A stretch of 64,000 nucleotides of DNA from Dechloromonas sp. H13 (GTDB taxonomy: Bacteria; Pseudomonadota; Gammaproteobacteria; Burkholderiales; Rhodocyclaceae). The notes beneath the pieces are model-generated. The model did no database searches. It was not told where the DNA came from and saw only the letters and a program-made list of their open reading frames with translations. The position numbers were made by a program, and so were the translations under genes. The stretch covers positions 62,001 through 126,000 of the forward strand of contig NZ_SSXX01000009.1 in NCBI RefSeq assembly GCF_009469615.1, written 5' to 3'. This document shows, one piece after another, positions 2,127 through 62,306 of the stretch (the stretch's first letter is position 1; the number at the start of each line of letters is the position of its first letter).

Positions 2127-3388
2127 GCGCCGGCCTCGCGGGCGAGACGGCGCAGGGCGGCGCGTTCGAGCTTGCCGGCGGCGTTGCGTGGCAGGCCGGG
2201 CAGGCGGACGATGCGCCGTGGGCGGGCCGGACCGGGCAGGCGCGCGGCGCTCCAGGCGCGCAGGCGCGCCGGTTCGGCGTCACCGACCACCAGCGCGACG
2301 ATGAGGTCGCCCCACACCGGGTCGGGCAGGCCGGTGACCGCCACGTCGCGGACGCCGGGGCAGGCGGCGAGACAGGATTCGACTTCCAGCGGATGCACGT
2401 TGCGCCCGCCGCTGATCAGCATGTCGTCGGCGCGGCCGGTGACGGTCAACCGCCCGGCAGCGTCGATTTCGCCGAGGTCGCCGGTGGTCAGCCAGCCGTC
2501 GGCATCGATCCCGCCGCCATCGAGGTAGCCGGTCATGAGCTGCGGCCCGCGGATGCGGATGCGCCCGTCGGCGGCAAGCGCGATTTCGTTCTTGCCGAGC
2601 GGGCGGCCGACCAGACCTTTGTGCCACGGCCCGTCGGCCGGCGTCCACGTGGCGATCTGGGCCGCCGTCTCGCTCATCCCGTAACTCGGGTTGAGCGGCC
2701 AGCCCGCGCTGCTCGCCTTGTCATAAAGGCTCGGCGCCAGCGCGGCACCGCCGATCATCACGTGGTGCAGGCTGGCCGGCGGCGCGACGCCGGTTTCCAG
2801 CAGGTGGGCCAGCATGGCCGGCACCAGCGAGAGATGGGTGACCGGCTGGCGCGCCAGGTCAGCGGCCACCGCGTCGGCGTTGAAACCGTCGTGCAGCAGC
2901 ACCGCCGCCCCGGCGCGCGCACAACGCCAGAGAATGGCGAGGCCGCCGATGTGGTGCAGCGGCAGGCAATCCAGCCACAGGTCGCCCGGTCGCAGCGGCA
3001 GATGGCGGTTGGCGGCGGCCGCCGCGGCGTCGAGGCTGGCGTCGCTCAACAGCACCCCGCGCGGCTCGCCCTCGCTGCCGCTGGTCGAAATCACCAGCGC
3101 GATGCGGGTCGGCAGCTCGCCGGTCCAGTGCACCGAACGGTTGCGGTCGACCGGCCAGAAAGGCCGATTTTCGAGGCTGCACGCATAGGCATGGCGGGCG
3201 AGTTCGAGGCTGCTGCCGGAAACGACGAGCGGCGCCGCGCCGCCCGCCAGCGTCGCGCCCAGCGCGCCGGTATCGGCCAGCAGTTCGGCGAAACTCCAGT
3301 TCTGCCCGGCGCAGCTCAGGGCGAGCGCCGCCGGCCGGCGCCGGGCGGCGGTGGCGAGGTGACGGGCGAGCGATCCGTTGGGCTTCAT
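2123..3388 (-). CDS. menE: o-succinylbenzoate--CoA ligase
   Basis: Acyl-CoA synthetase that activates o-succinylbenzoate for naphthoate ring closure. Adenylate-forming motifs appear in order: ISTSGSEGEPRG phosphate loop, PSYGMSETAAQ, WLTTGDLGEID, GRADDMLISGGRNVHP hinge, and the catalytic-lysine region NAAGKLER at the C-terminus. I chose the ATG at 3388 (protein begins MKPNGSLARHLA) over an in-frame start 51 bases upstream because homology to the family starts here. A perfect TATAAT (3398-3403, minus strand) lies only nine bases before this ATG, so a very short or absent 5' leader is possible. The normal upstream partners menB and menC are about 6.7 kb away. Confidence 0.88.
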   Translation of the reverse strand: MKPNGSLARHLATAARRRPAALALSCAGQNWSFAELLADTGALGATLAGGAAPLVVSGSSLELARHAYACSLENRPFWPVDRNRSVHWTGELPTRIALVISTSGSEGEPRGVLLSDASLDAAAAAANRHLPLRPGDLWLDCLPLHHIGGLAILWRCARAGAAVLLHDGFNADAVAADLARQPVTHLSLVPAMLAHLLETGVAPPASLHHVMIGGAALAPSLYDKASSAGWPLNPSYGMSETAAQIATWTPADGPWHKGLVGRPLGKNEIALAADGRIRIRGPQLMTGYLDGGGIDADGWLTTGDLGEIDAAGRLTVTGRADDMLISGGRNVHPLEVESCLAACPGVRDVAVTGLPDPVWGDLIVALVVGDAEPARLRAWSAARLPGPARPRRIVRLPGLPRNAAGKLERAALRRLAREAGA

Positions 3389-3683
3389 AAGCCTTGGATT
3401 ATAAGGAGCCCGGCGCGGGGCGGCGGCGAGGCAGATCAAGAAAACTGGGGGCGGCGGGGCCTTGCAGGGGAGAACGGGGGGCGTGAATTTGCCGGGAATC
3501 GGGTCGAGGGTCCTTGGTAGGCAGGGTTTCCGTTAATCGGCGAAGCTGTGGAAATCATTTACGCAGCTATCTGAAAAGCCGCGCTCCGCGTCAGTCGAAA
3601 CGATCCTCCCTTACCCGGGCCAAGCCGCTTTCCACCTGGACGGGAAAGATGGTGATGGGTTCGTAGGGCGGAATCGGTCGGCT
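3389..3683. other. intergenic stretch between menE and the cysteine-synthase remnant
   Basis: About 295 bases without a supportable gene. The part next to menE is GC-rich and contains a minus-strand TATAAT close to the menE ATG; the rest drops in GC toward the remnant. Nothing coding or repeated was recognised. Confidence 0.5.
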
Positions 3684-3944
3684 TGAGCCACCCTGGGCCA
3701 CCCGGGGGACATCGTGCCGCCGCTCCTCGACGAGACCCTGATCGACCGGCGTTGTCCGGTCACCCTCGATCTGGCGGCGGCAATGTGCCGCCGCTTGGCC
3801 GGGATCGGGCTCCATGGCGGGCCTTCCTTCGGTGCCTTTGTCGAGGCGGCATTGCGCCAGGCGGCGAGCGGGGGAAGAAGTGCCTTGGTTACGGTACTCG
3901 GTGACACCGGAGAGCGCTATGTTTCAACCGGTATGTGGCATTGA
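3684..3944 (+). pseudogene. 3' remnant of a cysteine-synthase-like PLP enzyme
   Basis: After a stop at 3684 the frame reads an uninterrupted 3' end of a fold-type II PLP enzyme. DIVPPLLDETLID, then AAAMCRRLAG, then GPSFGAFVEAALRQAA and finally ALVTVLGDTGERYVST match in order the C-terminal quarter of O-acetylserine sulfhydrylases (compare the family's GISSGAAVAAAL and ILPDTGERYLST). The PLP lysine, the substrate loop and the whole N-terminal domain are missing, so it cannot be an active enzyme. It sits at one edge of the lower-GC segment that splits the men genes and probably records how that segment arrived. Family assignment is by motif only. Confidence 0.7.
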
Positions 3945-4005
3945 TCTGTTACAGCGCCGGGCCTCAGGAATCCCGCAAGCGTCCTTCGTGGTGAAAGTCG
4001 GTGTC

Positions 4006-7144: not shown

Positions 7145-7263
7145 CCGGTTCACCGCTCTTCGTAGGTCAATCCCTACAGCGATCGCGACCGTCTCCGACA
7201 TCGGTCACGAAATACGCCGATATTTTCCTCGTGTGGCGGGTGCGAATATTTGATTTTGCAGCG

Positions 7264-7293
7264 TCCATGGTGGGGAATGTTTCCCAGCATGGA
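7264..7293. promoter_or_regulatory. long imperfect inverted repeat upstream of the first phasin-like gene
   Basis: TCCATGGTGGGGAA is followed by TGT and TTCCCAGCATGGA; the arms pair over about 13 bases with one mismatch and one bulge. It lies 40 bases before the ATG at 7334 and has no T-run after it, so an operator or leader hairpin fits better than a terminator. Confidence 0.5.
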
Positions 7294-7333
7294 TGTCGTG
7301 ATCCCTGACATTGCGTTCGCGAGGTGTTGTCAC

Positions 7334-7762: not shown

Positions 7763-7940
7763 ATTTGAGCTGGCCCCATGAGTAGTTTGGGCGGCGCGCG
7801 AGCAGCGTATTCCCGGAAGATCTTGTCATCGGCAGCGCGAGAAGATCACCCTGAATTTCGGGAGCGGACGTGTGGCGCGCTGAGATCGCCCCGGAGTTGA
7901 CGCCAGGGGCGTTCCGCTGGCGCTGGCAGGAAGATCCGGC

Positions 7941-8648: not shown

Positions 8649-8761
8649 TCGGCGCGCACCGTCCGTTCAAATCCGGTATTGATTGCCTGATTCTCGCCGC
8701 AGCAAGCGTTGGCGATGCGGTCGCGAAGTGTGCCGCAGTTGCCGCCATCGACCGCGATGCG

Positions 8762-10122: not shown

Positions 10123-11082
10123 TCAACGGGCTCCGGCCATCGCGAAGCCGATCCCGTCGCCTTTCGGCAATTGCATTCTCCCGTCGATGATGGGCGGTGA
10201 CAGGCCGACATCGCTGGCCAGCCATTCGCCGGTCGCCAGCCCGTGCACGGCGTCGGGTGCCACGGCGGCGGCGAGGTGGGCGAGGGTGGCGATGCCGCAG
10301 GCGCTTTCGAGGGCCGCGGTGACGATGACTTCCATGCCGCTGGCACGGGCGCGCAGGGCGAGTTCGGTGCTGGCGAGCAGGCCGCCGTGGCGGGCTGGCT
10401 TGAGTACGAGGCGGCGCACCGGCGCGTGGTGGAAGAAGGCAGTGTCGAGGAGATGAATCGATTCGTCGATGGCGAGCGGGAAGGCGGCAGCCATTTGCAG
10501 GCTGGCGAGCCGGGCCGCGTCGGGGGCGGCCAGCGGTTCTTCGAGGCCGTCGACCGGGAGGCCGGCGCAGGCGGCGATGAAGCGTTGCGCTTCGGCGAAG
10601 GTCCATGCGCGGTTGGCGTCGAGGCGCAGGCGCATTGTGGGCGGCAGGGTGGCGGCGAGGCGTTGCAGGGCGGCGATTTCGTCGTCGACCGGGGCGACGC
10701 CGACTTTCAGTTTGGCGACGGTGTAGCCGGCGCTGGCGGCTTGGTCGAGGCTGTCGCGGTCGACCGTGAAAATCGGCCCGAAACTGGCGTTGACCGCAAC
10801 CGACGCCAGCGGGGCGCGGCCGCTGAGCCAGGCGTTGAGCGACAGGCCGGCGCGTTGCGCGGCGAGGTCGAGGGTGGCGCTCTCCTCGGCGAAGGCGGTG
10901 GCGGCGGCTTCGTCGATGCCGAATTCCGGCAGCGGGGCGCAGTCTCCCCAGCCGGTGCGGCCGTCATCGGTGGTCAGGCGGCGCAGGCGGCCGCGGCGTT
11001 CGTTCAGCGTGCCGCGGCTGGTCTGCCATGGCCAGCGCAACGGCAGGCAGTAGGGCAGCCAGTCGGCGGCGACGACCTTCAC
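10123..11082 (-). CDS. menC: o-succinylbenzoate synthase
   Basis: Enolase-superfamily enzyme that dehydrates SHCHC to o-succinylbenzoate. At 319 residues it matches the short proteobacterial MenC. Visible motifs are the KLKVG lysine pair, metal ligands in [14 protein letters not shown] and AIDESIH, and the second catalytic lysine in VLKPARHGG. Its start overlaps the menB stop by four bases, so menB-menC form an operon. menD, menH and menA are not in the window; menE and menF lie beyond the lower-GC segment. Confidence 0.9.
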
Positions 11083-14623: not shown

Positions 14624-16294
14624 TCAGTTTCCGATCATTTCGTGGTTGGCGGCGCCGGGGGGCACCATCGGGAAGACTTTCTGCTCGACGTCGATGCTGG
14701 CGTGGATCAGGCAGGGGCCGGGGCGGGCGATGGCGTCCATCAGCGCGGCGCAGGGATTGGCGGCGGTGTCGAGGTCGACCGCGGCGATGCCGAAGCCTTG
14801 CGCGACCTTGACGAAATCCGGCGTCGCCTTGAACTGCGAGGCGAACAACCGCTCGCCATAGAACAGCGTCTGCTGCTGATGCACCAGGCCGAGCGAGGCG
14901 TTGTCCATGAGCACGATCTTGACGTTGACGTTCTCCTCGGCGGCGGTGACCAGTTCCTGGATGTTCATCAGGATCGAGCCGTCGCCGGTGAAGCAGACGA
15001 CGGTGCGCTGCGGTTCGGCCAGCGCGGCGCCGATGGCGGCCGGCACGCCGAAACCCATCGTGCCGAGCCCGCCGGAGGTCAGCCACTGGCGTGGGCGGCG
15101 CAGCGGGTAGCCCTGGGCGACCCACATCTGGTGCTGGCCGACGTCGGTGGCGATGATGGCCTCGTCGTCGAGGCAGGCGGCGACGGTGCGGATCAGGCCG
15201 AAGTGCGACAGCGGCTGGTCGAGGTCGGGCATGTGCTGCGGGAAATCGCGCTTCAGGGCATCGGTACGGTCGACCCAGGCTTTGCGGTCGTTTTCACTGA
15301 CCAGCGGCAGCAGGCGGACGAGCGCCTCGTGCACGTCGGCGGCGATGCCGACGTGGGCGGTCTTGATCTTGTCGAGTTCGGCGGCGTCGATGTCGATGTG
15401 GATGATCCTGGCCTGCGGGCAGAAGGCGGCGACCTTGCCGGTGGCGCGGTCGTCGAAGCGGGCGCCGACGGCGATCAGCAGGTCGCACTCGTCGAGCGCC
15501 AGGTTGGTACAGCGGGCGCCGTGCATGCCCAGCATGCCGAGCGACAGGCGATGGTCGACCGGCATCGCGCCGAGCGCCATCAGCGTCATTACCGTGGGCA
15601 AATTGGCCTTTTCCGCGAGGTCGACCGCAACCGACGAGGCACCGGCATGCACAACGCCGCCGCCGAGGTAGAGGATGGGGCGTTTGGCCCCGTTGATCAT
15701 CGCCGCCGCTTCGGAAATCGCCCAGGCATCGGCCGCCGGCGGCAGTTCGCGGGCGCCCGGCGCCGGCCAGTCGGCGACCTCGATGGCCTGCGTCTGCACA
15801 TCCTTCGGGATGTCGACCAGCACCGGGCCGGGGCGGCCGGAGGCGGCGATGCCGAAGGCGCGCGGAATCACGTCGAGCAGTTCCTCGGCCGAGGTGACGA
15901 GGAAATTATGCTTGGTGATCGGGATCGACAGGCCGTAGGTGTCGACTTCCTGGAAGGCGTCGGTGCCGATCATCGCCTTCGGCACCTGGCCGGTGATGGC
16001 GACGAGCGGGATCGAATCGAGCTTGGCGTCGGCGATGGCCGTCAGCAGGTTGGTCGCGCCGGGGCCGGAGGAGGCGAGGCAGACCGCCGGCTGGCCGCTG
16101 GCGCGCGCCATGCCTTGGGCCATGAAGCCGGCGCCCTGTTCGTGGCGGGCGAGGACGTGGTGGATCAGCGCCGATTGCCCGAGGGCGTCGTAGATCGGCA
16201 GGATGGCGCCGCCGGGAATGCCGGCGACGGTACGCACGCCCTGGCGTTCTAGCAGGCGGATGGCGATCTGGGCGCCGGTGAGGGTTTCGGTCAT
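14624..16294 (-). CDS. ilvB: acetolactate synthase large subunit (IlvB type)
   Basis: ThDP-dependent enzyme of 556 residues that makes acetolactate or acetohydroxybutyrate for branched-chain amino acids. It has the GIPGGAILPIYDAL start, the catalytic Glu in ARHEQGAGFMAQG, the SGPGATNLLTAIADAKLDSIP signature, FAD-region GMHGARCTNLALDECD, and the ThDP motif GDGSILMNIQEL through NASLGLVHQQQ. The Phe in TDAFQEVDTYG and overall similarity point to the IlvB rather than IlvI group. An AAAGGAG site lies before the ATG. A leader peptide and attenuator hairpin precede it, indicating control by Val/Ile-tRNA charging. Confidence 0.95.
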   Translation of the reverse strand: MTETLTGAQIAIRLLERQGVRTVAGIPGGAILPIYDALGQSALIHHVLARHEQGAGFMAQGMARASGQPAVCLASSGPGATNLLTAIADAKLDSIPLVAITGQVPKAMIGTDAFQEVDTYGLSIPITKHNFLVTSAEELLDVIPRAFGIAASGRPGPVLVDIPKDVQTQAIEVADWPAPGARELPPAADAWAISEAAAMINGAKRPILYLGGGVVHAGASSVAVDLAEKANLPTVMTLMALGAMPVDHRLSLGMLGMHGARCTNLALDECDLLIAVGARFDDRATGKVAAFCPQARIIHIDIDAAELDKIKTAHVGIAADVHEALVRLLPLVSENDRKAWVDRTDALKRDFPQHMPDLDQPLSHFGLIRTVAACLDDEAIIATDVGQHQMWVAQGYPLRRPRQWLTSGGLGTMGFGVPAAIGAALAEPQRTVVCFTGDGSILMNIQELVTAAEENVNVKIVLMDNASLGLVHQQQTLFYGERLFASQFKATPDFVKVAQGFGIAAVDLDTAANPCAALMDAIARPGPCLIHASIDVEQKVFPMVPPGAANHEMIGN

Positions 16295-17764: not shown

Positions 17765-17811
17765 GGCGCCAATCTTATGCCTTTCCCGGCCCGCGCCGGA
17801 AATCGCCCGGT

Positions 17812-17945
17812 TTACGGCGTCGACCGCAGCAGGCCGATTTCTCGCGTGGCTTTTGTTTTGATGATGGCGCTGGCGAGGCGGGTGGGGATTTCGCTCAGGG
17901 TCGTGGAGAGCAACAAGACGCCACCTTTAGCCCGGGGCCGGGGAA
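17812..17945 (-). pseudogene. duplicated 3' fragment of the metalloprotease-like gene at 19164
   Basis: Read on the minus strand, an in-frame stretch of about 40 codons ends in the same residues and stop as the gene at 19164-19940. KGGVLLL..., EIPTRLASAIIK and TREIGLLRSTP-stop correspond to MGGRTPI..., DIPSSLADTVIG and AREIGLLRSTP-stop. The last 35 bases are nearly identical at DNA level; similarity fades upstream. It has no start or catalytic motif. It looks like the decayed end of a former tandem copy. Confidence 0.75.
17819..17829 (+). repeat. copy of the iterated GTCGACCGCA(A/G) word
   Basis: GTCGACCGCAG preceded by GGTTTACGGC. It lies inside the last codons of the degraded 3' fragment and is duplicated with it at 19171. 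Confidence 0.7.
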
Positions 17946-19122: not shown

Positions 19123-19163
19123 CGGTACCAGCTTGGCGCATCTGCTTCTGAAATTTGGCAGTT

Positions 19164-19940
19164 TTACGGCGTCGACCGCAGCAGGCCGATTTCCCGGGCG
19201 GTTTCGCTGCCGATGACGGTATCGGCGAGGCTGCTGGGAATGTCGGCGCGCTGCTCGTCGATCGGTGTGCGGCCGCCCATGATTTCCGCCTTGTCCTGCG
19301 GCAGGCGGGGATTCCGGTCGGGTTCGGCGTAGCCCGCCGGGTGGATCGGCTGCAGCGTGGCGAGGTCGTACTTGTCGCTGGCGCCGAAGGTATGCAGCAG
19401 TTCGTGGGCGATGACTACGGCGTTCTGCCGCCGTTGTGGCCGGCTGGCGAAGGCGTGGATGACGCCGATCCCGCCCTTGCTCAGGCCGATGGAGTGGGGC
19501 AGGGCGCTGGCGCGTTCGGGGTCGTGGAAGAGCACGAATATCCGGACCTGCGGTCGCGGCCCGGCGATATCGTCGTGGCGCGACGCCCACCAGCGCAGCT
19601 CCAGACTCCAGACGATGGCGTCGAGCGGGCCGGGACGGGCACGCGGCAACGGCGGCCGGACGGCGAGCGGCGGCGCGACGCGCAGCGCGACCGGCTGCAG
19701 GAGCGAACGGCCGTAGCGGTCGCTCTGTTCCTGTAGCCAGCGGGCGATGTCGGCGAAATCGTCATCGCTCAGTTCGGCGACGAAGCGGGCCGTCGCCGGG
19801 GAGTCGTCGGCGGCGATCGGGTAGATGGCGACGTGGACGGTGTGTTCCCAGGCCGTCAGCCGGCTGTTGGCCCGCCACGCGCCAAGGGCGACGGTGGCGA
19901 GGATGAGCAGCAGGATCAGGATGCGGAATTTTCGGAACAT
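19164..19940 (-). CDS. membrane-anchored zinc metalloprotease-like protein
   Basis: The N-terminal anchor FRKFRILILLLILATVALGAW is followed by a soluble domain with HELLHTFGASDKYD, an HExxH-type zinc site with a third ligand candidate in the following Asp. The protein ends AREIGLLRSTP. Start choice: ATG 19940 gives 258 residues; a GTG at 20015 would add 25 basic residues and lacks a ribosome-binding site. Function is not established. Its last codons contain a copy of the iterated GTCGACCGCA word, and a decayed copy of its 3' end lies at 17812. Confidence 0.7.
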   Translation of the reverse strand: MFRKFRILILLLILATVALGAWRANSRLTAWEHTVHVAIYPIAADDSPATARFVAELSDDDFADIARWLQEQSDRYGRSLLQPVALRVAPPLAVRPPLPRARPGPLDAIVWSLELRWWASRHDDIAGPRPQVRIFVLFHDPERASALPHSIGLSKGGIGVIHAFASRPQRRQNAVVIAHELLHTFGASDKYDLATLQPIHPAGYAEPDRNPRLPQDKAEIMGGRTPIDEQRADIPSSLADTVIGSETAREIGLLRSTP

Positions 19941-20541: not shown

Positions 20542-20574
20542 TCTGCCTATGGTGATTTTTGCCGTTTTTTGCGG

Positions 20575-20585
20575 GTCGACCGCAA
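20575..20585 (+). repeat. copy of the iterated GTCGACCGCAA word
   Basis: GTCGACCGCAA preceded by GCCGTTTTTTGCGG, 34 bases after the stop codon of the glycine-zipper gene. With its left flank it forms most of the palindrome TTGCGGTCGACCGCAA. Confidence 0.75.
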
Positions 20586-20607
20586 CGGGCGGCAATTTCC
20601 AGGCATG

Positions 20608-28445: not shown

Positions 28446-28458
28446 TCCCGCTCCCCTG

Positions 28459-28469
28459 TTGCGGTCGAC
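28459..28469 (-). repeat. copy of the iterated GTCGACCGCAA word
   Basis: On the minus strand GGGCTTTTGCGGCC leads into GTCGACCGCAA. It lies 14 bases after the stop of the receiver gene and before the kinase-exonuclease gene. Confidence 0.75.
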
Positions 28470-28497
28470 GGCCGCAAAAGCCCGAAATCCAATCCGG

Positions 28498-33701: not shown

Positions 33702-34372
33702 TGGTTTTCGGACTGAAGAATTTCCTGCTCAAGGGCGGCACCCGCTCACCGGCCAGCCTGCCGGAAGATGTCCGGCTGGCGCTCGAGGCCTGGCGCGCCA
33801 GCACGGCGCCGGCCCTCGACGGGCCGCATTTCCATACGCGCTACGTGGTGGTCGATGTCGCCACCTCGGGTTCGCGCGCGGCGGAAGACGAATTGCTCGG
33901 CATCTCGGCGGTCGGCGTGCAGGCCGGTTCGATCCTGCCGGCCGACGCCTTCGCGCTCGACCTTGCCGCCGATGTGGCCGCCGATGCTGCGGTCGACCGC
34001 CAGCTGATGGCCTTTTTGACCTACGCCGCCAAGGCCCCGCTGGTGACCTACCACAGCCCGTTCGTCAGCGGCTTCCTGCAGCGCGCCTACAAGGAACGCC
34101 TCGGCGTCGATTTTCAGCCGCAGTGGATCGACCTGGCCTGGCTACTGCCCTCGCTGTTCCCAGAGAAGTCGATGAAGGTCGTGGCGCTTGACGACTGGCT
34201 GGAGATGTTCGGGCTCGGTAGCAGCGGGCGGCGCGACACGATGGCCAACACGCTGGTCCTCGCGCGCCTGTTCCAGATGCTGCTGGTGCGCGCCACCGGC
34301 AAGGAAATCGCCACTGCCGGCAAGCTCGTCGAGGAATCGCAGGCCGCGACCTTTCTGCGCCGCCACCACTGA
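33701..34372 (+). CDS. DnaQ-fold exonuclease-like protein with degraded active site
   Basis: A 223-residue protein annotated by similarity as a 3'-5' exonuclease, but the DEDDh residues are mostly gone. VVVDVATSGSRAAEDEL keeps the first Asp and loses the paired acidic residue. YHSPFVSGFL replaces HN-x3-D. GRRDTMANTLVLARLF replaces H-x-A-x2-DA. The fold signature around the strands remains. A non-catalytic role is therefore likely. It overlaps the preceding stop by one base and lies directly upstream of the symporter gene, as exonuclease-like genes do in related acetate clusters. Confidence 0.72.
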   Translation: MVFGLKNFLLKGGTRSPASLPEDVRLALEAWRASTAPALDGPHFHTRYVVVDVATSGSRAAEDELLGISAVGVQAGSILPADAFALDLAADVAADAAVDRQLMAFLTYAAKAPLVTYHSPFVSGFLQRAYKERLGVDFQPQWIDLAWLLPSLFPEKSMKVVALDDWLEMFGLGSSGRRDTMANTLVLARLFQMLLVRATGKEIATAGKLVEESQAATFLRRHH

Positions 34373-36983: not shown

Positions 36984-37074
36984 GGAGAGGTGGATGAGTG
37001 GTTTAAGTCGCACGCCTGGAAAGCGTGTATAGGTTAATAGCCTATCGGGGGTTCGAATCCCCCCCTCTCCGCCA
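36984..37074 (+). tRNA. tRNA-Ser (anticodon GGA)
   Basis: Class II tRNA of 91 bases. GGAGAGG at the 5' end pairs with CCTCTCC; the anticodon arm CACGCCTGGAAAGCGTG carries GGA, reading UCC and UCU. A long variable arm (TATAGGTTAATAGCCTATC region) and the T-loop GTTCGAATC follow. G73 and CCA are encoded. Confidence 0.97.
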
Positions 37075-37116: not shown

Positions 37117-38427
37117 TCAGAGATTGCGCAGCTTGCGGTAAAGGGTTCGCGGGCTGATGCCGAGTTTGCCGGCCAGCGTCGGCAGGTCGTTGCGGGAGTT
37201 CGTCCTGACCCATTCCAGGTAACGTCTTTCCAGTGTCGCCAGGTCGACGATTTCGTGCATCTGGAACGAAGCGTTCGCCGCGTCCGGCGCTTCGGGTATG
37301 TCGTCGGCCATTTCCGCCAGGTGGCGCACATCGATCACGTCGCCGTCGGCGAGCAGGGTGGCGCGTTCGATCAGGTTGCGCAGTTCGCGGATGTTGCCGC
37401 TGAAGCGGCGGCCGGCCAGCCAGGCGAGGGCGGCCGGGGTGAAGCTGCGCGTGCGCTTGCGGTCGACGCGTTCGAGCAGCGAAATGGCCAGCAGCGGAAT
37501 GTCTTCGGTGCGCTCGTGCAGTGCCGGCGTGTGGATCGGGAAGGTGTTGATGCGGAAATAGAGGTCGCGGCGGAAGGTCTCGGCGTGGACCATGGCGCGC
37601 AGGTCGCGGTGGGTGGCGGTGATCAGGCGGAAGTCGGCGGGCAGCCAGTCGAGGCCGCCGACCCGGCGGTAGGTGCCGGTTTCCAGCAGGCGTAGCAGCT
37701 TGACCTGAAGGGCGAGCGGCAGTTCGCCGATTTCGTCGAGGAACAGCGTGCCGCCGGCTGCCGCTTCGACCAGCCCCTGCTTGCGGTGCGTGGCGCCGGT
37801 GAAGGCGCCTTTTTCGTAGCCGAAGAGTTCGCTCTCGAACAGCGTTTCGGTCATTCCGGCGCAGTCGACCGCAACGAACGGCCCTTCGTTGCGGTCGCCG
37901 GCCTCGTGGATGGCGTGCGCGACCAGTTCCTTGCCGGTGCCGGTTTCGCCGAGCAGGAGTACGCTGGCGTCGGCGCCGGCGACCCGCATCACCTTTTCCA
38001 GCATGCTCACGAAGGCCGGCGAGCGGCCGACCAGTCCTTGTGCGGCGGCCCGGCTGCTGGCCTGGCGGACGACGCGCATGGTCTCGACGAAATAGACGAT
38101 CTGCCCCTGGTCGTCGCGGATCGGGGTGGTCTCGACATCGACGTGTTCCTCGCCGCGCGGCGTGTGGTGGAGGTGGAGCACGCGCTGTGGCGTGCCGGCT
38201 TCGAGGCTCTGCTTGAGCGGGCAGGATTCGCCGGCCTGGTCGCAGGGCACGCTGAAGCGATGCGACACCTCGTAGCAGGTGCGCCCGGCGACCGGCTGCC
38301 CGCTGCCGAATTCCCGCGCATAGGCGGCGTTGGCGGCGACGATGCGGTAGTCGGCATCCATCACGATGCGCGGTTCGGGCAGGCCGTCGAGGAAGGAGAT
38401 CAGTTCGCTGAGAAAATGGGCGGTCAT
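37117..38427 (-). CDS. sigma-54-dependent Fis-family activator with PAS domain
   Basis: A 436-residue enhancer-binding protein. An N-terminal PAS domain (LPEPRIVMDADYRIVAANAAYAREF) contains a cysteine-rich segment, CYEVSHRFSVPCDQAGESCPL, found in a PAS subgroup suspected of metal or redox sensing. The AAA+ domain is complete: LGETGTGKE Walker A, the sigma-54-contact loop GAFTGA, GGTLFLDEIGELP Walker B and the RRDLYFRI arginine region. The C-terminal Fis helix-turn-helix ends LGISPRTLYRKL. It is divergent from ccoG. A TTGTCAA/TTGACAA inverted repeat lies just before its start. The target operon is unknown. Confidence 0.9.
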   Translation of the reverse strand: MTAHFLSELISFLDGLPEPRIVMDADYRIVAANAAYAREFGSGQPVAGRTCYEVSHRFSVPCDQAGESCPLKQSLEAGTPQRVLHLHHTPRGEEHVDVETTPIRDDQGQIVYFVETMRVVRQASSRAAAQGLVGRSPAFVSMLEKVMRVAGADASVLLLGETGTGKELVAHAIHEAGDRNEGPFVAVDCAGMTETLFESELFGYEKGAFTGATHRKQGLVEAAAGGTLFLDEIGELPLALQVKLLRLLETGTYRRVGGLDWLPADFRLITATHRDLRAMVHAETFRRDLYFRINTFPIHTPALHERTEDIPLLAISLLERVDRKRTRSFTPAALAWLAGRRFSGNIRELRNLIERATLLADGDVIDVRHLAEMADDIPEAPDAANASFQMHEIVDLATLERRYLEWVRTNSRNDLPTLAGKLGISPRTLYRKLRNL

Positions 38428-38767: not shown

Positions 38768-40180
38768 ATGAGCCAGCCCCAGACCAGCACGTCCCAGGAA
38801 ACGCCCAGCCAGGTTTCGTTCTACGAGAAGCGCAAGAAAATCTACGCCAAGGGCGTGCGCGGATTCTTCGACAACTGGCGCATCGCGCTGGTGATCTTCA
38901 CCCAGATCCTCTTCTACGTCACGCCGTGGCTGGTCTGGAACGACCGCCAGGCGGTGCTGCTGCATCTGGTCGAGCGCAAGTTCTACATCTTCGGCCTGGT
39001 CTTCTGGCCGCAGGACGTCATCTACCTGGCGGCGCTGCTGATCATCTCGGCCTACGCGCTCTTCCTCGTCACCGCCATCGCCGGCCGCCTGTTCTGCGGC
39101 TACGCCTGTCCGCAGACGGTGTATACCCAGATGTTCATGTGGATCGAGAACTGGATCGAGGGCGAGCGCAACGCCCGCATCAAGCTCGACAAGGCGCCGC
39201 TCGATGCGCGCAAGATCCGCATCAAGGGCACCAAGCACCTGCTGTGGCTGCTGGTCTCGCTGTGGACCGGCTTCACGCTGGTCGCCTACTTCACGCCGGT
39301 CAACGAACTGATCGCGGCGGTCAAGTCCAACGACCTGAGCGGCTGGGAAACCTTCTGGATCTTCTTCTACGGCGGCTTCACCTACCTGATGGCCGGCTTC
39401 ATGCGCGAGCAGGTGTGCAAGTACATGTGTCCCTACGCCCGTTTCCAGAGCGTGATGTTCGACCCCGACACGCTGATCATCACCTACGATCCGGAACGCG
39501 GCGAAACGCGCGGCGCGCGCCGCAAGGGCGTCGATGCCAAGGCCGCCGGCCTGGGCGACTGCGTCGATTGCGGGCTCTGCGTGCAGGTCTGCCCGACCGG
39601 CATCGACATCCGCAACGGCCTGCAGTACGAATGCATCGGCTGTGCCGCCTGCGTGGACGTCTGCGACCAGGTCATGGACAAGGTCGGTCTGCCGCGCGGC
39701 CTGGTCCGCTATTCGACCGAGAACGCCATGGCCCGCCACCTGACGCGCCAGGAGATCATCGGCCACGTCGTCCGGCCGCGCATCCTCGTCTACACCGCCA
39801 TCCTGGTGCTCATCGTTGGCGCCGCCGGCTGGTTCCTGGCGCACCGCATCCCGCTCAAGGTCGACATCATCCGCGACCGCTCGACCCTGGCGCGCGAAGC
39901 CGACGACGGGCGCATCGAGAACGTCTATACCCTGCAGATCATGAACACCGAGGAGCGGCCGCACCGCTACACGGTTGCGGTCGACGGCCTGCCGGGGGCG
40001 GAAATCGCCGGCGAGCGCGAGGTCGATGTCCCCGCCGCGACGCTGCAGGCCTTCAATACCGTCGTCAGGGTGGCGCCGGATGCCGGCAGGCAGGGCGCCA
40101 ATCCGATCCATTTCGAGATCGTCGCCAGCGAGAACGCCGACATCAAGGTCCGCGAAAAAGCCTCCTTCCTCCTGCCCTGA
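38768..40180 (+). CDS. ccoG: cytochrome c oxidase accessory protein CcoG (FixG/RdxA)
   Basis: Polyferredoxin of 470 residues needed for copper delivery to cbb3 oxidase. It has membrane helices at the N-terminus, GRLFCGYACPQTVYTQ and QVCKYMCPYARFQ, then two 4Fe-4S motifs (CVDCGLCVQVCPTG and CIGCAACVDVC), another helix (ILVYTAILVLIVGAAGWFL) and a C-terminal periplasmic Ig-like FixG_C domain. The ccoNOP genes are not in the window. The ATG at 38768 lacks a strong ribosome-binding site, but homology starts just after it. A terminator follows. Confidence 0.94.
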   Translation: MSQPQTSTSQETPSQVSFYEKRKKIYAKGVRGFFDNWRIALVIFTQILFYVTPWLVWNDRQAVLLHLVERKFYIFGLVFWPQDVIYLAALLIISAYALFLVTAIAGRLFCGYACPQTVYTQMFMWIENWIEGERNARIKLDKAPLDARKIRIKGTKHLLWLLVSLWTGFTLVAYFTPVNELIAAVKSNDLSGWETFWIFFYGGFTYLMAGFMREQVCKYMCPYARFQSVMFDPDTLIITYDPERGETRGARRKGVDAKAAGLGDCVDCGLCVQVCPTGIDIRNGLQYECIGCAACVDVCDQVMDKVGLPRGLVRYSTENAMARHLTRQEIIGHVVRPRILVYTAILVLIVGAAGWFLAHRIPLKVDIIRDRSTLAREADDGRIENVYTLQIMNTEERPHRYTVAVDGLPGAEIAGEREVDVPAATLQAFNTVVRVAPDAGRQGANPIHFEIVASENADIKVREKASFLLP

Positions 40181-42586: not shown

Positions 42587-43981
42587 ATGAACGCCGATCC
42601 GCTGATCGCCACGCTCTCCGCCATCGTCGGTCCGGCCCACGTGCTGACTGCCGCCGCCGACCTCGCGCCCTTCGTCACCGACTGGCGCGGCCGCTACCGG
42701 GGCGCTGCGCGCTGCGTGGTGCGTCCGGCCGGGACCGCCGAAGTGGCGGCGGTCGTCCGGGCCTGCGCGGCGGCCGGTGCGCCCATCGTCCCGCAGGGCG
42801 GCAACTCCAGCCTGTGCGGCGCGGCGACACCGGACGCCGGCGGCGGCGCCGTCATCGTCAGCCTCGGGCGCCTGAACCGCATCGTTGCGGTCGACGCACA
42901 AAACGACACCATTTCCGTCGAGGCCGGGTGCACGCTGGCGGCGGTGCAGGACGCCGCGCGTGCCGCCGACCGCCTGTTCCCGCTGGCGCTCGCCTCCGAA
43001 GGCACGTGCCAGATCGGCGGCAATCTGTCGACCAACGCCGGCGGCGTCCAGGTGCTGCGCTACGGCAACACGCGCGACCTGACGCTCGGCCTCGAAGTCG
43101 TCCTGCCCGACGGCGAAGTCTGGAACGGCCTGCGCGGCCTGCGCAAGGACAACACCGGCTACGACCTCAAGCAGCTGTTCATCGGCGCCGAAGGCACGCT
43201 CGGCATCATCACCGCGGCGGTGTTGAAGCTCTTCCCGCTGCCGAAAACGCAGACCACCTGCTGGCTCAACGTCGCGACGCCGGCAGCTGCGGTCGACCTC
43301 CTGAATCGGGCAAAAACCGCGTTCGACGCGCATCTCACCGCCTTCGAGCTGGTCTCCGAAACCGCGCTCGGGCTGGTGCTCCGGCACATCCCCGGCGCCG
43401 CGCGGCCGGGCGCCGCCAGCCCGTGGTACGTGCTGGCCGAGTTCTCCGCGGCCGACCCAACCGCCGTCGAGGGCTGGCTGACGGAGCGGCTGGAACGCGG
43501 CGAGGCGGATGACGGCGTCGTCGCCCGCTCGCAGGCCCAGGCCGCGAAGCTGTGGTCGCTGCGCGAGAACATTTCGGAAGCGCAGAAGATCGAGGGCATC
43601 AGCATCAAGCACGACATCGCGGTGCCGGTGTCGCGCATTCCCGAGTTCCTGGCGCGCGCCGACGCGGCGCTGGCGGCCGCCTTTTCCGGCATCCGCGTCG
43701 TCGCCTTCGGCCATGTCGGCGACGGCAACCTGCATTACAACCTGTCGAAACCCGATGCGCAGGACAACGCCGCCTTCATCGCCGCGCAGCCGGCGGTCAA
43801 TCGCCTGGTGCATGACGCGGTCGACGCCCTGGGCGGGTCGATTTCCGCCGAGCATGGCATCGGCCAGCTCAAGCGCGAGGAATTGCTGCGTTACAAGAGT
43901 CCGGTCGAGATCGCCCTGATGCGCACCCTCAAGCAGGCGCTCGACCCGCGCGGGCTGATGAATCCGGGCAAGATCCTCTAG
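42587..43981 (+). CDS. FAD-binding D-2-hydroxyacid dehydrogenase (GlcD/D2HGDH-like)
   Basis: A 464-residue flavoprotein: FAD-binding PCMH domain with VRPAGTAEVAAVVRACAAAGAPIVPQGGNSSLCG, EGTCQIGGNLSTNAGGVQVLRYGNTRDL and GAEGTLGIITA, then the FAD-oxidase C domain with FGHVGDGNLHYNLS and SISAEHGIGQLKR. It oxidises D-2-hydroxyacids such as D-lactate, D-2-hydroxyglutarate or glycolate. No iron-sulfur glcF gene is adjacent, which favours the single-subunit D2HGDH-like group. It contains two copies of the iterated GTCGACCGCA word. Confidence 0.9.
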   Translation: MNADPLIATLSAIVGPAHVLTAAADLAPFVTDWRGRYRGAARCVVRPAGTAEVAAVVRACAAAGAPIVPQGGNSSLCGAATPDAGGGAVIVSLGRLNRIVAVDAQNDTISVEAGCTLAAVQDAARAADRLFPLALASEGTCQIGGNLSTNAGGVQVLRYGNTRDLTLGLEVVLPDGEVWNGLRGLRKDNTGYDLKQLFIGAEGTLGIITAAVLKLFPLPKTQTTCWLNVATPAAAVDLLNRAKTAFDAHLTAFELVSETALGLVLRHIPGAARPGAASPWYVLAEFSAADPTAVEGWLTERLERGEADDGVVARSQAQAAKLWSLRENISEAQKIEGISIKHDIAVPVSRIPEFLARADAALAAAFSGIRVVAFGHVGDGNLHYNLSKPDAQDNAAFIAAQPAVNRLVHDAVDALGGSISAEHGIGQLKREELLRYKSPVEIALMRTLKQALDPRGLMNPGKIL

Positions 43982-44932: not shown

Positions 44933-45249
44933 GGAGTCGGTCCGGCAAGGTAGAGGGTCCGTTCGGCGCGGCAGTCGTCGCCACCCATCCGGTAGTCGCG
45001 GCAGATGAAGGGGCGGCGCGCGTAGATGGTGCACCGCATGGTATTGCGATCGAGCGCCGCGCACCAGCCGTCGGCGAGCCGCCGCAGCACCCAGCCGCCC
45101 CAGCGATCCTCGGCAGTGAAGCGGGCAGGAACGTCGTCGTCGCCGGTCAGCATGACTTCCAGGCGGCAGCAGCAGGCGGCGCAGGTGTCGCAGGAAACCG
45201 CCGCATCGTTGCCGGCGGCGGGGTCAGCCGCGTTCGGGTGCGGTTTCAG
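44929..45249 (-). CDS. YkgJ-type zinc/iron Cys-cluster protein, apparent CTG start
   Basis: A 106-residue protein with an N-terminal cysteine cluster, CDTCAACCCRLEV, then WCAALDRNTMRCTIYARRPFICRDYRMGGDDC: the CxxCxxCC plus C-x-Y-x-RP-x2-CR-x-Y pattern of the YkgJ family. The only ATG in frame (45153) comes after the first cluster and would remove four metal ligands. No ATG, GTG or TTG exists between that point and the upstream in-frame stop at 45352. CTG 45249 overlaps the hslO stop (CTGA), so translational coupling with a CTG start is the simplest reading. Function of the family is unknown. Confidence 0.75.
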   Translation of the reverse strand: MKPHPNAADPAAGNDAAVSCDTCAACCCRLEVMLTGDDDVPARFTAEDRWGGWVLRRLADGWCAALDRNTMRCTIYARRPFICRDYRMGGDDCRAERTLYLAGPTP

Positions 45250-46124
45250 TGCAGCGTCCGGCCGGCGTCGGAAAACAGCTCGGCGACGTCCTCGGCGCTG
45301 AAGCGGTATTCGTGGTTGCAGATGTCGTCGCGGATCAGGATCTCGCCGTGCTCACGCAGGATCGTCTCGGCATCCTCGCGGCCCAGGCTGCGGATCATGT
45401 CGCGCACCTTGGTCCAGTCCTCCGGGCAGTGGTAGACCACCGGCGCCGGGTCGTAGACGCGCACGCCGTGGCTCGCCATGTCCTCATGGAAGAGGCGGCC
45501 GAGCAGGGCCTCGGCGTCGAGCTCGAGCAGTTCGCCCGGCTTGACGGTGGCGGCGAGCTGGGTGATGCGGTGCCAGCCATCGGCGTCGCGGGCGTCGGCC
45601 TCCGGCATCTTCTGCAGGAACAGGCAGGCGGCGGCCCTCGGGCCGGCGCTCACGAACAGGCGCGAGGGCTGTTGTTCGGACTGTTCGAGGTAGTGTTCGA
45701 AAATCGCCGCGATGCTGTCACCGACCAGCGGGACGAAGCTCTGGTAGGGGTGGCGGGCGTTCGGCTGGTCGAGGCTGAGCATCAGCTGGCCGCCCTGGTC
45801 GGCGCCGAGCAGCGCCGGCACCGGCGCCGGCAGGACGACCGGGTTGCTGCGCGCCATGCCGCGCATCTGCAGCTGCTCGTTGCAGTCCATGACCAGCAGC
45901 TGGATCGGGCCGTTGCCACGCAACTGCAGCGTCAGGCGCCCGGGTTGCTTGAGCTGGGCGGCGATCAGCGCGGTGACGGCGGCAGTCTCGCCGAGCAGTT
46001 GGGCGACCGTCGGCTGGTAGTTGCGGTCGACCTGCATTTGCTGCCAGGAATCGCCGAGGTGAACGATGGCGCCGCGGATGTCGAGGTGCTCGAAGAGGAA
46101 ACGGCGGACGCTGCTGCCGCTCAT
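45246..46124 (-). CDS. hslO: Hsp33-type redox chaperone with reduced cysteine set
   Basis: A 292-residue protein with the Hsp33 core: RGAIVHLGDSW, TALIAAQLKQPGRLTLQLRGNGPIQLLV, YFEHYLEQSEQ-like block FEHYLEQSEQQPSRL and the linker region. The canonical C-terminal CxC and CxxC zinc switch is not complete: only Cys233 (YHCPEDW) and Cys269 (DDICNHEYRF) remain, with acidic or His residues nearby. Oxidative activation through two disulfides is therefore not possible in the E. coli manner. It overlaps the arsC-like stop at one end and the YkgJ gene at the other. Confidence 0.85.
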   Translation of the reverse strand: MSGSSVRRFLFEHLDIRGAIVHLGDSWQQMQVDRNYQPTVAQLLGETAAVTALIAAQLKQPGRLTLQLRGNGPIQLLVMDCNEQLQMRGMARSNPVVLPAPVPALLGADQGGQLMLSLDQPNARHPYQSFVPLVGDSIAAIFEHYLEQSEQQPSRLFVSAGPRAAACLFLQKMPEADARDADGWHRITQLAATVKPGELLELDAEALLGRLFHEDMASHGVRVYDPAPVVYHCPEDWTKVRDMIRSLGREDAETILREHGEILIRDDICNHEYRFSAEDVAELFSDAGRTLH

Positions 46125-46465
46125 TTGAGTTCGGCGGCGTAGGTTTCGGGGGCGAAGCCGACCAGCAGCTTGCTGCCGGTGTCGAGCACCGGCCGCTTGA
46201 TCAGCGCCGGATACTGCGCCATCAATTTGAGGGCTTTTGGCGCGTCGACCGCAGAACGCTCCTCATCGCTCAGCTTCTTCCACATCAGGCCGCGCGTGTT
46301 GAGCAGCTTCTCCCAGCCGGCGCGTGCCGCCCAGTCGGGCAGGTTGGCCTCGGCGACACCGGCCTTCTTGTAATCGACGAATTCGTAGGCGACGCCGTTG
46401 TCGCTGAGCCAGGTCATGGCCTTCTTCATCGTGTCGCAGTTCTTGATGCCGTAGAGTTTGGTCAT
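46121..46465 (-). CDS. ArsC/Spx-family protein (YffB-like)
   Basis: A 114-residue thioredoxin-fold protein: MTKLYGIKNCDTMKKAMTWL places a single Cys at position 10, followed by EFVDYKKAG, NTRGLMWKKL and the RPVLDTGSKLLVGF C-terminal block. YffB-like proteins are glutathione-dependent thiol reductases rather than true arsenate reductases. It is coupled to hslO by a four-base overlap, a link that fits thiol stress. A copy of the iterated word lies inside at 46244. Confidence 0.88.
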   Translation of the reverse strand: MTKLYGIKNCDTMKKAMTWLSDNGVAYEFVDYKKAGVAEANLPDWAARAGWEKLLNTRGLMWKKLSDEERSAVDAPKALKLMAQYPALIKRPVLDTGSKLLVGFAPETYAAELK

Positions 46466-54100: not shown

Positions 54101-55429
54101 TCAGCGGAACTCGAACGCCTCCCGGTGAAACGCATCCCCTGGCAAGCCGTTGCCAGCCAGCGTTCTTGAGAGGGCCTTTCCCCAGGCAGCCGGGCCGCAG
54201 AACCAGACGCTGGCGCCGGGTTTGAGGCGGCTCTGGATTTCGGCGGAGGTGAGAGGGCCCTGGGCATCGGTCAGGCGGCGGTGCAGGCGAACGCCGGCTT
54301 GCCGGCAGAGGCTTTCGAGGTCTGCCGGGTAGTCGGTGGCGTGCGGGGTGCAGTAGAAGAAGTCGGTTTCGGTGGCGGTCGCATTGCGGGCGATGCGTTC
54401 CCCGAGACGGGCGAGGAAGGGGGTGATGCCGATGCCGCCGGCGATCCAGATTTGCGGCGCCGGGCCTTTGCTGCGGTCGACCGTTCCGGAAGGGCAAAAA
54501 TCAAAATTGCCGTAGGGGCCCTCGATGGCGATGGTCTGGCCGACACGCAGGGATTGCGGGAGCGTGCCGGTGTAGTCGCCCAGCGCCTTGATGGCGAGGG
54601 TGAGGGTGCCGGTTTTACGCTGCCAGGCGGAGGCGATGGTGAAGGGGTGGGCGCCTTCGGCCGGTGTGCCGAAATTGGCCAGCAGGAACTGGCCGGCGCG
54701 GTGGCCGGGCCAGTCGTCGTGCGGGCGGCAGGTGACTTCGAGGATGCCGTCGCCGTGCCGGGTCAGGGCTTCGATCTGCGCCGGGTAGCGGCGCGGGCGG
54801 CCGATGTGTCCGCTCAGCGAGAGCAGGGTGGAAACGATGCCGGCGGCGGCGAGCAGGGCGGTCAGCCAGCCGAGCGGCTGCGCCCAGAAGCTGCCGGGCA
54901 GCATCATCAGGCCATGAAAGACGCCGGCCAGGAAGACGGCGCCGAAGGCCTTGTGCACAAGGCGGAACCAGCGATAGGGAATGCGTTTGACGAGGGCGAC
55001 AACGACCAGCGCGAGCAGGATGTAGCCGGCCCATTCGCCGACGTCCTTGGCCAGTTCGACCCAGAAATCCGGCGGACCCTTGGGGCCGGCGCCGCGCGGA
55101 CGCGGGGCGATCAGCCCGGCGCGGGCGAGGTTCTTGGGCAGCCACTCGCTCATCCAGTGGGCGAAGACGAGGATGCCGCCGCCGATGCCGAGATACTTGT
55201 GCCAGCGGTAGAGTTTGTCCAGCCCGCCGAGGCGTTGTTCGAGCCAGCGCGGGCGGGCGGCGAGGACGATGCCGGCGCTCATCCACCACAGGGCGAGGAT
55301 GCCGGAGAGGATGACGATGGCACGCCGCCAGTTCCAGAATCCGGGGTCGCTGGCGAGCAGGTCGGGGAGGACGAACAGGCCCCACAGGCCGAGCGGCAGG
55401 AGGGCGAGGGTGGTGAGGGTGCGCTTCAT
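54101..55429 (-). CDS. ferric-reductase-like transmembrane flavoprotein
   Basis: A 442-residue protein. Six or so membrane helices with histidines suited to haem (YRWHKYLGIGGGILVFAHW, FRLVHKAFGAVFLAGVFHG) are followed by a ferredoxin-reductase module. The FAD motif is HPFTIASAW, GPYGNFDF follows, the NAD-binding GGIGITPFLARLGERI comes next and a C-terminal VWFCGPAAWGKAL ends the domain. It resembles FRE/NOX-like bacterial oxidoreductases that move electrons from NAD(P)H across the membrane. The electron acceptor is not known. I chose ATG 55429 (MKRTLTTLALL) because upstream residues are Arg-rich shadow sequence. Confidence 0.87.
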   Translation of the reverse strand: MKRTLTTLALLPLGLWGLFVLPDLLASDPGFWNWRRAIVILSGILALWWMSAGIVLAARPRWLEQRLGGLDKLYRWHKYLGIGGGILVFAHWMSEWLPKNLARAGLIAPRPRGAGPKGPPDFWVELAKDVGEWAGYILLALVVVALVKRIPYRWFRLVHKAFGAVFLAGVFHGLMMLPGSFWAQPLGWLTALLAAAGIVSTLLSLSGHIGRPRRYPAQIEALTRHGDGILEVTCRPHDDWPGHRAGQFLLANFGTPAEGAHPFTIASAWQRKTGTLTLAIKALGDYTGTLPQSLRVGQTIAIEGPYGNFDFCPSGTVDRSKGPAPQIWIAGGIGITPFLARLGERIARNATATETDFFYCTPHATDYPADLESLCRQAGVRLHRRLTDAQGPLTSAEIQSRLKPGASVWFCGPAAWGKALSRTLAGNGLPGDAFHREAFEFR

Positions 55430-57176: not shown

Positions 57177-57515
57177 ATGAAAGACCGGCAAATGATGCGT
57201 CTGGCACTCGGCAAAGGCGATGCGCGCCGCGTGCTGGTGGAAGCGGGTACGACAGTGCTGGTGCTGGAAGGCAGCGCGAACGTGCGCGGGCCGTTGCAGT
57301 GGCTGGCGGAAACCCCGGTAGCGCCGGAGCAACGGCTGGGTTTGGAACAGGTGCTGACGCTGGAGGGCGGTGGGTGGATTGACTTGATGGCTGCCGAAGC
57401 GGCGGAACTATTGGTGCTGCCGCCGCAGGGGCTTCAGGTTTGGCGGCGGGTGGCGCGGGGGCTGGAGCGGTTGATGGGGAACGAAGGCCGGAAGAAGCCG
57501 CTGGTGTTAGGTTGA
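57177..57515 (+). CDS. small protein, DUF2917-like, probable MocR target
   Basis: A 112-residue beta-rich protein beginning MKDRQMMRLALGKGDARRV, with LVEAGTTVLVLEGSANVRGPLQWLAE and ending in a basic tail. The pattern of alternating Val/Leu with Gly resembles DUF2917 cupin-like proteins, not certain. ACGGAGA precedes the ATG. The 57141-57158 GCCCCG/CGGGGC hairpin lies in its leader. Its position opposite the MocR gene suggests it is the regulated gene. Confidence 0.6.
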   Translation: MKDRQMMRLALGKGDARRVLVEAGTTVLVLEGSANVRGPLQWLAETPVAPEQRLGLEQVLTLEGGGWIDLMAAEAAELLVLPPQGLQVWRRVARGLERLMGNEGRKKPLVLG

Positions 57516-57534
57516 AAATGGGCTGTTTTTCGAG

Positions 57535-57545
57535 GTCGACCGTGA
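57535..57545 (+). repeat. variant copy of the iterated GTCGACCG word
   Basis: GTCGACCGTGA preceded by GGGCTGTTTTTCGAG, 20 bases after the stop of the small gene. It marks the edge of the lower-GC stretch that follows. Confidence 0.6.
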
Positions 57546-57778
57546 CAAGTTAGATTTGGCTGAGGTAAATGGCGACGCTTAGTATCCTCACCGGCAGTTG
57601 GCGACCCACTGCTACCGGTCGATTCTTCTAGGTTTCAACGGCAGGTAACCGAGCGGTGCGGTCACACAACACGATCACTCACGGACACCCTCGGCCAACT
57701 GCTACGTCTCTGCGGCAAGAAACGTACTGACAATAGAGTCCTGCGCTGACCTCGGGCTATCCGTCTTAAACTACGGCC

Positions 57779-61723: not shown

Positions 61724-61765
61724 GTTATCTCGCTTCGCTCAAGGAGGCGAATAGGAGGGTACTCA

Positions 61766-62143
61766 ATGAACCAACACAACCCGGATTTCATCTTCACATG
61801 CCATGATGAATTACCTTGGACACCATCCAAATTCGCCCCAGGCGTTGCAGTCAAAAATTTGGGGAAGGCGAACGGACGAGCTATGCAGTTGGTTCGCTTT
61901 CTCCCAGGAGCCTCATTTCCCGCCCATCTGCACACGGATGTAGAGTTCCTCTTCATGCTTGAGGGAGAAGTTCTTCAGAACGGTCAAAGATTGTGCGTTG
62001 GATGGTCTATGGTGGCTCCTGCTGGCACAGAAGACTTTGAATTTGTAAGCCCAACGGGCTGCATTTTTTTGTTGGTTTATGGGCTAGGCACCAGCGACCT
62101 GTTCACTGGGCTTCCGAGCCAGCAACGACCGCTATGCACCTGA
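61766..62143 (+). CDS. single-domain cupin protein
   Basis: A 125-residue beta-barrel protein with the two cupin motifs: FLPGASFPAHLHTDVEFLFMLEGEV (metal His/His/Glu) and the second block around GWSMVAPAGTEDFEFVSPTGC. It resembles ChrR-type cupins in length. GGAGG lies farther upstream than ideal. It follows the PaiB-like gene by 42 bases and is likely in the same operon. Substrate unknown. Confidence 0.8.
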   Translation: MNQHNPDFIFTCHDELPWTPSKFAPGVAVKNLGKANGRAMQLVRFLPGASFPAHLHTDVEFLFMLEGEVLQNGQRLCVGWSMVAPAGTEDFEFVSPTGCIFLLVYGLGTSDLFTGLPSQQRPLCT

Positions 62144-62295
62144 TGCTGTCGTTTTTGTTGCTATAGCCGTAAGGCTGAATTGGGTCGATAGCAGTCCAAC
62201 TTCGTGCTTGGCAAGACCAGGTGATCTCGTTGAGTCCGGCTGTGGATAGTTCTTAAAACTCCCCGCCGTGCCCCGGAATTTGCCTTCTTTTAGAA

Positions 62296-62306
62296 GTCGA
62301 CCGCGA
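62296..62306 (+). repeat. variant copy of the iterated GTCGACCG word
   Basis: GTCGACCGCGA preceded by TGCCTTCTTTTAGAA. It lies 30 bases beyond the 3' end of the minus-strand hydrolase gene, at the other edge of the lower-GC stretch. Confidence 0.65.

Follow-up and report, generated by a model that had tools for sequence, protein, structure and literature searches.

The DNA analysed here is a stretch of 64,000 nucleotides (hereafter the window) from Dechloromonas sp. H13, contig NZ_SSXX01000009.1, positions 62,001 to 126,000, in which a short word, GTCGACCGCA, recurs on both strands (Table 1). The window contains 17 exact matches to this word which, together with its complement, is the most frequent 10-mer of the window. 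Markov models of orders 2 to 5 built from the window predict 0.65 to 1.18 exact copies (P(≥17) ≤ 1.6e-14). When one mismatch is allowed, 36 matches are found, compared with 10.2 ± 3.3 in dinucleotide shuffles, and none of 100 shuffles reached 36. The first-pass annotation had listed about 20 copies, 17 strict and three variant, all of which are present; the strict copies that it placed on the minus strand start one base further on (at 3142, 28460, 31543 and so on), and its list was incomplete, with at least three more copies of the form GTCGACCGCG at 14774, 22376 and 43816. Exact copies are spaced about 3.8 kb apart on average and the longest gap measures 12.5 kb (3142 to 15620), so that stretches of 5 to 8 kb without copies are unremarkable by themselves.

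Alignment of 107 exact copies on the core TGCGGTCGAC reveals an asymmetric motif of about 38 bp, extending from about −6 to +31, outside which these copies show background composition and no conservation. The motif begins with G..[CT][GT]G[CT]TGCGGTCGAC and continues with a weak CC near +12, an A-rich tract at +15 to +18, GGC at +21 to +23, AAWTT at +25 to +29 and a C at +30. The outer AT segment, scored as at least three A/T in +25 to +28, is present at 16 of the 17 exact sites in the window and at 160 of the 167 exact copies in 800 kb of the host genome, compared with 12% of random positions. The inner segment (at least three A/T in +15 to +18; random positions, again 12%) accompanies 98 of the 167 copies, and 96 carry both. 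The upstream T-tract and the GGC-N-TTTT arrangement reported in the first-pass annotation are the 3′ flank of the motif read from the opposite strand; the tract is real, but only part of the architecture had been seen, as there are two AT segments. The same annotation had likened the word to HIP1, the highly iterated palindrome of cyanobacteria. Both elements are short and highly iterated, but HIP1 is palindromic, whereas the unit conserved here is asymmetric with one-sided AT segments. Neighbouring copies no more than 60 bp apart form four pairs in 800 kb; three of these, the only such pairs among the 167 copies, overlap as the inverted palindrome TGCGGTCGACCGCA, which argues against a HIP1-type element. 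An iterated weight matrix reported 763 sites, with 36 in the mirrored control. It was rejected and its site number set aside, because a frame count placed 515 of its 748 genic sites in a single frame and so showed that it had drifted to codon periodicity.

Across the host genome, which comprises 3.66 Mb in 62 contigs and of which about a quarter was examined directly and the remainder by word counts alone, the word occurs 735 times (380 + 355), compared with 17 occurrences of GTCGACCGCA read backwards. This corresponds to about 200 copies per Mb, and the most over-represented 10-mer is TGCGGTCGAC. The 800 kb hold 167 perfect copies, and all 30 one-off words combined amount to 345. The Markov check that had been proposed in the first-pass annotation gives 9.7 to 15.2 expected copies for these 800 kb (orders 3 to 5), and the over-representation stands; the order-6 expectation is 34, this order already containing most of the word.

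The same annotation had named the GCG-GTC-GAC codon string as a possible explanation; the word could be frequent if Ala-Val-Asp is written in this way in a GC-rich genome. Such an effect would fit the 46 of 54 same-strand genic copies that lie in this frame, but it is virtually excluded by two counts. On the 800 kb, a simple codon-usage caller defined 578 genes, within which synonymous codons were shuffled 200 times; the shuffles yielded 2.1 (maximum 6) and 10.8 (maximum 19) copies for the two strands, compared with 54 and 56 observed. The remaining 163 kb outside called genes contain 57 copies where 1.9 are expected (order 4), although some of these may be genic because the caller covers 80% of the DNA. 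Furthermore, the AT segments lie outside the word, and the pattern is not seen in other members of the family or order.

The copies are balanced between strands (83/84) over the 800 kb, where GC skew keeps one sign, and are therefore no polar signal of the KOPS (FtsK-orienting polar sequence) or Chi kind. An apparent strand polarity proved to be an artefact; the host DNA itself shows both strands mixed. Counts per 10 kb are slightly more even than Poisson (variance/mean 1.52/2.09, one-sided p ~0.03). Genes contain 110 of the 167 copies and intergenic regions 57, compared with 33 expected by length. This excess is what an operator of a large regulon would produce, but about 200 copies per Mb, mostly genic, with just four of the 57 intergenic copies in divergent, promoter-side gaps that make up 19% of intergenic bases, render a regulatory role extremely improbable.

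To follow the origin of the copies, we used the 80 best named loci found with the fumarase gene of the window. Most come from Rhodocyclales, among them Dechloromonas, Azonexus and Zoogloea, and others from Burkholderiales or from metagenome bins with vague labels; the closest are Dechloromonas loci (97% identity), which points to this genus for the host. Six of the 80 loci contain at least four exact cores, and every one of these is labelled Dechloromonas or Azonexus; the others contain at most two. For D. hortensis, two exact cores were counted in 21.5 kb. The copy at 31543 is complete in loci L061, L062 and L067, one base off in L077, L082, L084, L089 and L105, and further diverged, mostly without gaps, in distant relatives. 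Its variants also alter the residues encoded by the surrounding reading frame. The site at 15620 shows the same pattern of mostly ungapped substitutions rather than insertions. Between genes, for example at 28460, alignments with distant relatives are full of gaps and carry little information. From the few homologous stretches compared, the copies seem to have originated by in-place substitution. Of the seven window sites that can be aligned with L062, the closest relative, six are exact, compared with 38.6% of all 10-mers (p = 0.016). These alignments also bear on a dispersed small mobile or repetitive extragenic palindrome-like repeat, possibly acting as terminators or RNA elements. Intergenic copies are indeed somewhat commoner in convergent gaps (23 of 57, in 27% of intergenic bases). 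We nevertheless regard this explanation as largely refuted and highly improbable, since nothing is conserved beyond 38 bp, aligned homologous sites differ by substitution, and most copies are genic; with so few adjacent pairs, hairpin-type terminators are rare. A separate repeat was noticed in L105 (Dechloromonas sp. S06.Bin117), where CAGGGTTGAA and AGGGTTGAAG occur 7 times in 21.5 kb, counting both strands; it appears to be local and unrelated.

Table 1. Copies of the motif in the 64,000-nucleotide window (window coordinates)
Feature	Core position	Span	Strand	Remarks
Exact core TGCGGTCGAC	3142	3136..3173	+	
Exact core, GTCGACCGCA	15620	15598..15635	-	Homologous stretch of relatives carries variants of one or several bases
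Exact core	17819	17797..17834	-	Aligned with relatives
Exact core	19171	19149..19186	-	Aligned with relatives
Exact core	20575	20553..20590	-	Core also complete in L061, L062 and L067 (L067 with an alignment gap within)
Exact core	28460	28454..28491	+	Aligned with relatives
Exact core	31543	31537..31574	+	Within open reading frame 30668..31729 (+); relatives differ by in-place substitutions
Exact core	32969	32963..33000	+	
Exact core	33988	33982..34019	+	Overlapped by a one-mismatch inverted copy at 33992
Exact core	37458	37452..37489	+	
Exact core	37864	37842..37879	-	
Exact core	39976	39970..40007	+	
Exact core	42886	42880..42917	+	
Exact core	43288	43282..43319	+	
Exact core	46022	46016..46053	+	Within Hsp33-like gene 45246..46124
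Exact core	46244	46222..46259	-	
Exact core	54472	54466..54503	+	
Degenerate copy CGCGGTCGAC	10755	10749..10786	+	
Degenerate copy GTCGACCGTG	57535	57513..57550	-	AT-rich flank
Degenerate copy GTCGACCGCG	62296	62274..62311	-	AT-rich flank

Besides these copies, the sole RNA gene found in the window is a tRNA-Ser (GGA) at 36984..37074. A Pfam scan of eight window frames returned no match for six of them, which are probably wrong frames.

To assess the taxonomic range of the motif, we counted a specific pattern, TGCGGTCGAC N15 WWW, in which the outer AT segment is required. It occurs 528 times in the host, and the eight genus members of the family sample, of which the host is one, have 24 to 528 copies. 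Outside the genus, no more than 8 copies were counted in any of 241 family genomes from 67 other genera, and no more than 5 in any of 393 genomes of the order, 7 of which are shared with the family sample. Within the genus, motif classes rest on one degenerate pattern, CGGTYRAC N15 WWW, and the relatives include incomplete assemblies. On this basis, 31 of 60 genomes are strongly enriched, at no less than 7.6 times the mirrored control and with 611 to 2063 copies, the most being in G050. A further six (G005, G044, G045, G046, G006 and G038) reach 2.1 to 3.5 times the control, a level that resembles gradual decay following loss, and 23 have little or no motif (0.4 to 1.7 times). Part of this low group still retains a few full copies; in G047 the specific pattern is found 24 times and its mirror image not at all.

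Sequence logos for five enriched genomes, drawn from 800 kb of the host and 100 kb of each other genome, reveal dialects. G042 prefers CGGTCAAC and has its inner A-tract at +13 to +17, while at position 0 G039 prefers A to T and G032 often has C. Nine relatives whose 100-kb samples contained no more than one exact copy were also screened de novo for other words, and no comparable one emerged; the screen is weak for degenerate dialects, since G039, one of the nine, later proved to be dialect-enriched. A tree of ComEC spreads enriched species across the genus and places the depleted ones in several separate groups (at least seven by eye). Given this distribution and the apparently eroded intermediates, the data suggest that the motif is an old trait of the genus that was repeatedly lost.

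These properties also bear on whether the motif could be the site of a chromosome-organising or nucleoid protein, that is, of a DNA-bending protein bound chromosome-wide. A long asymmetric site, AT segments at helical spacing, even distribution and mild intergenic enrichment would all agree with such a role. Near absence from 23 of 60 genus genomes, together with the dialects, would however be unusual for an essential housekeeping site; orientation shows none of the polarity of KOPS- or Chi-like signals; and most copies lie in genes, far above the synonymous expectation, with few on promoter sides. We therefore consider a nucleoid site distinctly unlikely.

Taken together, we think it likely that the motif serves the Azonexus/Dechloromonas genus (Rhodocyclales) as a DNA uptake sequence for self-recognition, which would make this the third lineage to have one. 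The first-pass annotation had pointed to both uptake sequences and HIP1-type palindromes; only the former comparison is borne out, with good support from the abundance and orientation of the copies, the AT segments, the dialects and the apparent origin by substitution. We infer that the motif raises DNA uptake through a receptor and DNA bending, and that transformation drives its accumulation. The transformation pilus would carry a DNA receptor at the cell surface, probably one of its minor pilins, with a preference for DNA in which the core CGGTYRAC (here TGCGGTCGAC) is followed on the 3′ side by two AT-rich segments spaced by about one helical turn. These segments would probably allow the helix to bend or kink while the pilus draws the DNA in. 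Since well-matching DNA would enter cells and recombine more frequently, point mutations that bring a site closer to the motif could spread in place throughout the genome, on both strands and within as well as between genes. We further hypothesized that the design, with TGCGGT in the core and two AT segments in helical phase on the same side, is shared with the uptake signal sequences (USS) of Pasteurellaceae through a FimT/PpdA-type minor pilin of common descent that reads DNA alike in Beta- and Gammaproteobacteria, with dialect switches and repeated loss within the genus; this extension is doubtful.

Components of the transformation machinery are present in the host, namely an intact ComEC, a ComEA-like HHH (helix-hairpin-helix) protein and type IV pilins. 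In its minor-pilin cluster, a pilin of the ComP_DUS family (PF16732) lies beside a FimT/GspH-type pilin, and a PilV-like pilin is also present. The best NCBIfam match of the FimT/GspH-type pilin, far below the cut-off and nearly tied with TIGR02596, is PRK10506 (prepilin peptidase-dependent protein), a model that we take to represent PpdA. Excerpts of a recent study predict PpdA (ComN) as the USS receptor of Pasteurellaceae (PMC12616744).

Several observations weigh against an uptake sequence. The PF16732 pilin is found in 56 of 60 genus genomes, enriched and others alike, and the closest homologues of the host protein show no split between the two. The adjacent FimT-like pilin, sought with a crude regular expression, was detected at 11 of 30 loci, five from enriched genomes and six from others. 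As no candidate pilin separates enriched from depleted genomes, we claim no receptor. At the search threshold 59 of 60 genomes match the ComEA-like protein, many of them through weak HHH matches; in the part of the candidates that was scored, those of the enriched genomes G003, G015 and G058 are of this weak kind. The search found none in G042, which is enriched and listed as 100% complete, so that either it was missed or another protein serves. The count thus lends orthologues no support. Of the 29 genomes that lack strong enrichment, 17 have an intact ComEC, and competence genes alone therefore do not predict the motif. The moderate intergenic enrichment would equally be expected of a binding site. 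Finally, exact-site conservation is significantly above background only in L062, the closest of nine relatives: it is not significant in L061 (3/5), L067 (3/6), L077 (1/4) and L088 (1/1), and L064 (0/4), L065 (0/3), L069 (0/4) and L089 (0/3) keep no site.

Nor is breakage of comEC significantly associated with motif loss. Although the association is suggestive by eye, comEC is broken in 3 of 29 resolved enriched and 7 of 24 resolved other genomes on our own assignment of classes (Fisher p = 0.16, kinship ignored). This count leaves out G006, G009, G019, G021, G028, G033 and G038, in which comEC is missing or at a contig end, and scores G008, with comEC halves on two contigs, as broken; the calls for relatives depend on their assemblies. 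The motif is dense in G002, G008 and G054 despite an interrupted or split comEC, which would fit a recent loss of competence or a gene divided by the assembly.

A separate observation concerns the position of these breaks. The comEC gene is interrupted close to codon 238 in at least four species (loci L268, L271 and L272, that is, G036 and G056; also G005 and G029; see also G002, G018 and G043). The G056 insert encodes a TniQ/TnsD-type protein and the G036 insert a TniB-type ATPase, and one frame in G029 has no Pfam match. Within the cargo of the G056 insertion (L271:2771-8065), a weak resemblance to MotA/ExbB scores below the Pfam cut-off and large proteins adjoin, an arrangement reminiscent of Zorya-type defence. 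The inserts of G056 and G036 suggest that Tn7-like elements settle in comEC, the competence channel gene. The available text on a Tn7-like element in which comEC is mentioned gives comM of Acinetobacter as the target (PMC11472951).

If uptake experiments confirm its function, the Azonexus/Dechloromonas motif would mark a third lineage with a self-DNA tag, after those of Haemophilus and Neisseria. With 31 enriched and 23 nearly motif-free genomes among 60, as well as dialects, the genus offers a natural experiment on the gain, change and loss of self-recognition in transformation. It may also give access to the identity of USS-type receptors and to the need for AT segments. Some members of the Dechloromonas/Azonexus group are studied for perchlorate reduction, and the motif could become a practical handle for transforming this group. 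In the excerpts available, uptake sequences were not known outside Pasteurellaceae and Neisseriaceae in 2006 (PMC1626085), and strong uptake preferences were named for the same two families in 2020 (PMC7811141). In the open-licence literature searched, we found no uptake sequence reported for Dechloromonas, Rhodocyclales, Rhodocyclaceae or Betaproteobacteria.

As in systems of the USS and DUS (DNA uptake sequence) kind, a single word is over-represented in both orientations (735 versus 17; 83/84), and its copies appear to arise by in-place substitution, also inside genes, as indicated by the alignments at 31543 and 15620, few as these sites are, and by the synonymous shuffle. The excerpts of PMC1626085 and PMC7811141 describe the USS of Pasteurellaceae as a Hin type, AAGTGCGGT, and an Apl type, ACAAGCGGT, which arise by mutation, are clade-specific, and combine a GCGGT core with two 3′ AT-rich segments about one helical turn apart. 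As far as these excerpts go, the motif resembles USS in its hundreds to thousands of copies, GCGGT within the core, two 3′ AT segments about one turn apart, apparent origin by point mutation and clade-specific variants. It differs in its Rhodocyclales lineage and in a core, TGCGGTCGAC, that continues 3′ of GCGGT. By our own reading of the numbering in the portion of PMC1626085 available, the first AT segment follows GGT by about 10 bp here and by about 2 in USS, and the segments are separated by about 10 to 11 bp, compared with 12 in USS. Neither AAGTGCGGT nor ACAAGCGGT is the most over-represented word of the host, whose top 10-mer shares TGCGGT alone with the Hin type. The DUS of Neisseriaceae, GCCGTCTGAA, is recognized by the receptor ComP. 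It occurs in dialects and overlapping dyads, according to excerpts of PMC3630211; those of PMC1626085 describe it as without flanking AT segments. On these partial accounts, the motif is likewise a dense genomic tag with lineage dialects and occasional overlapping dyad pairs, and a PF16732 pilin gene is present. Conversely, the word is another one, AT segments flank it, and the PF16732 pilin does not track it; neither the motif logo nor the top 10-mer is of the DUS type, a CTG-containing word without flanking segments. Judged from sequence, the motif thus behaves as an uptake sequence on the computable properties tested, the receptor aside, and is a member of neither known family.

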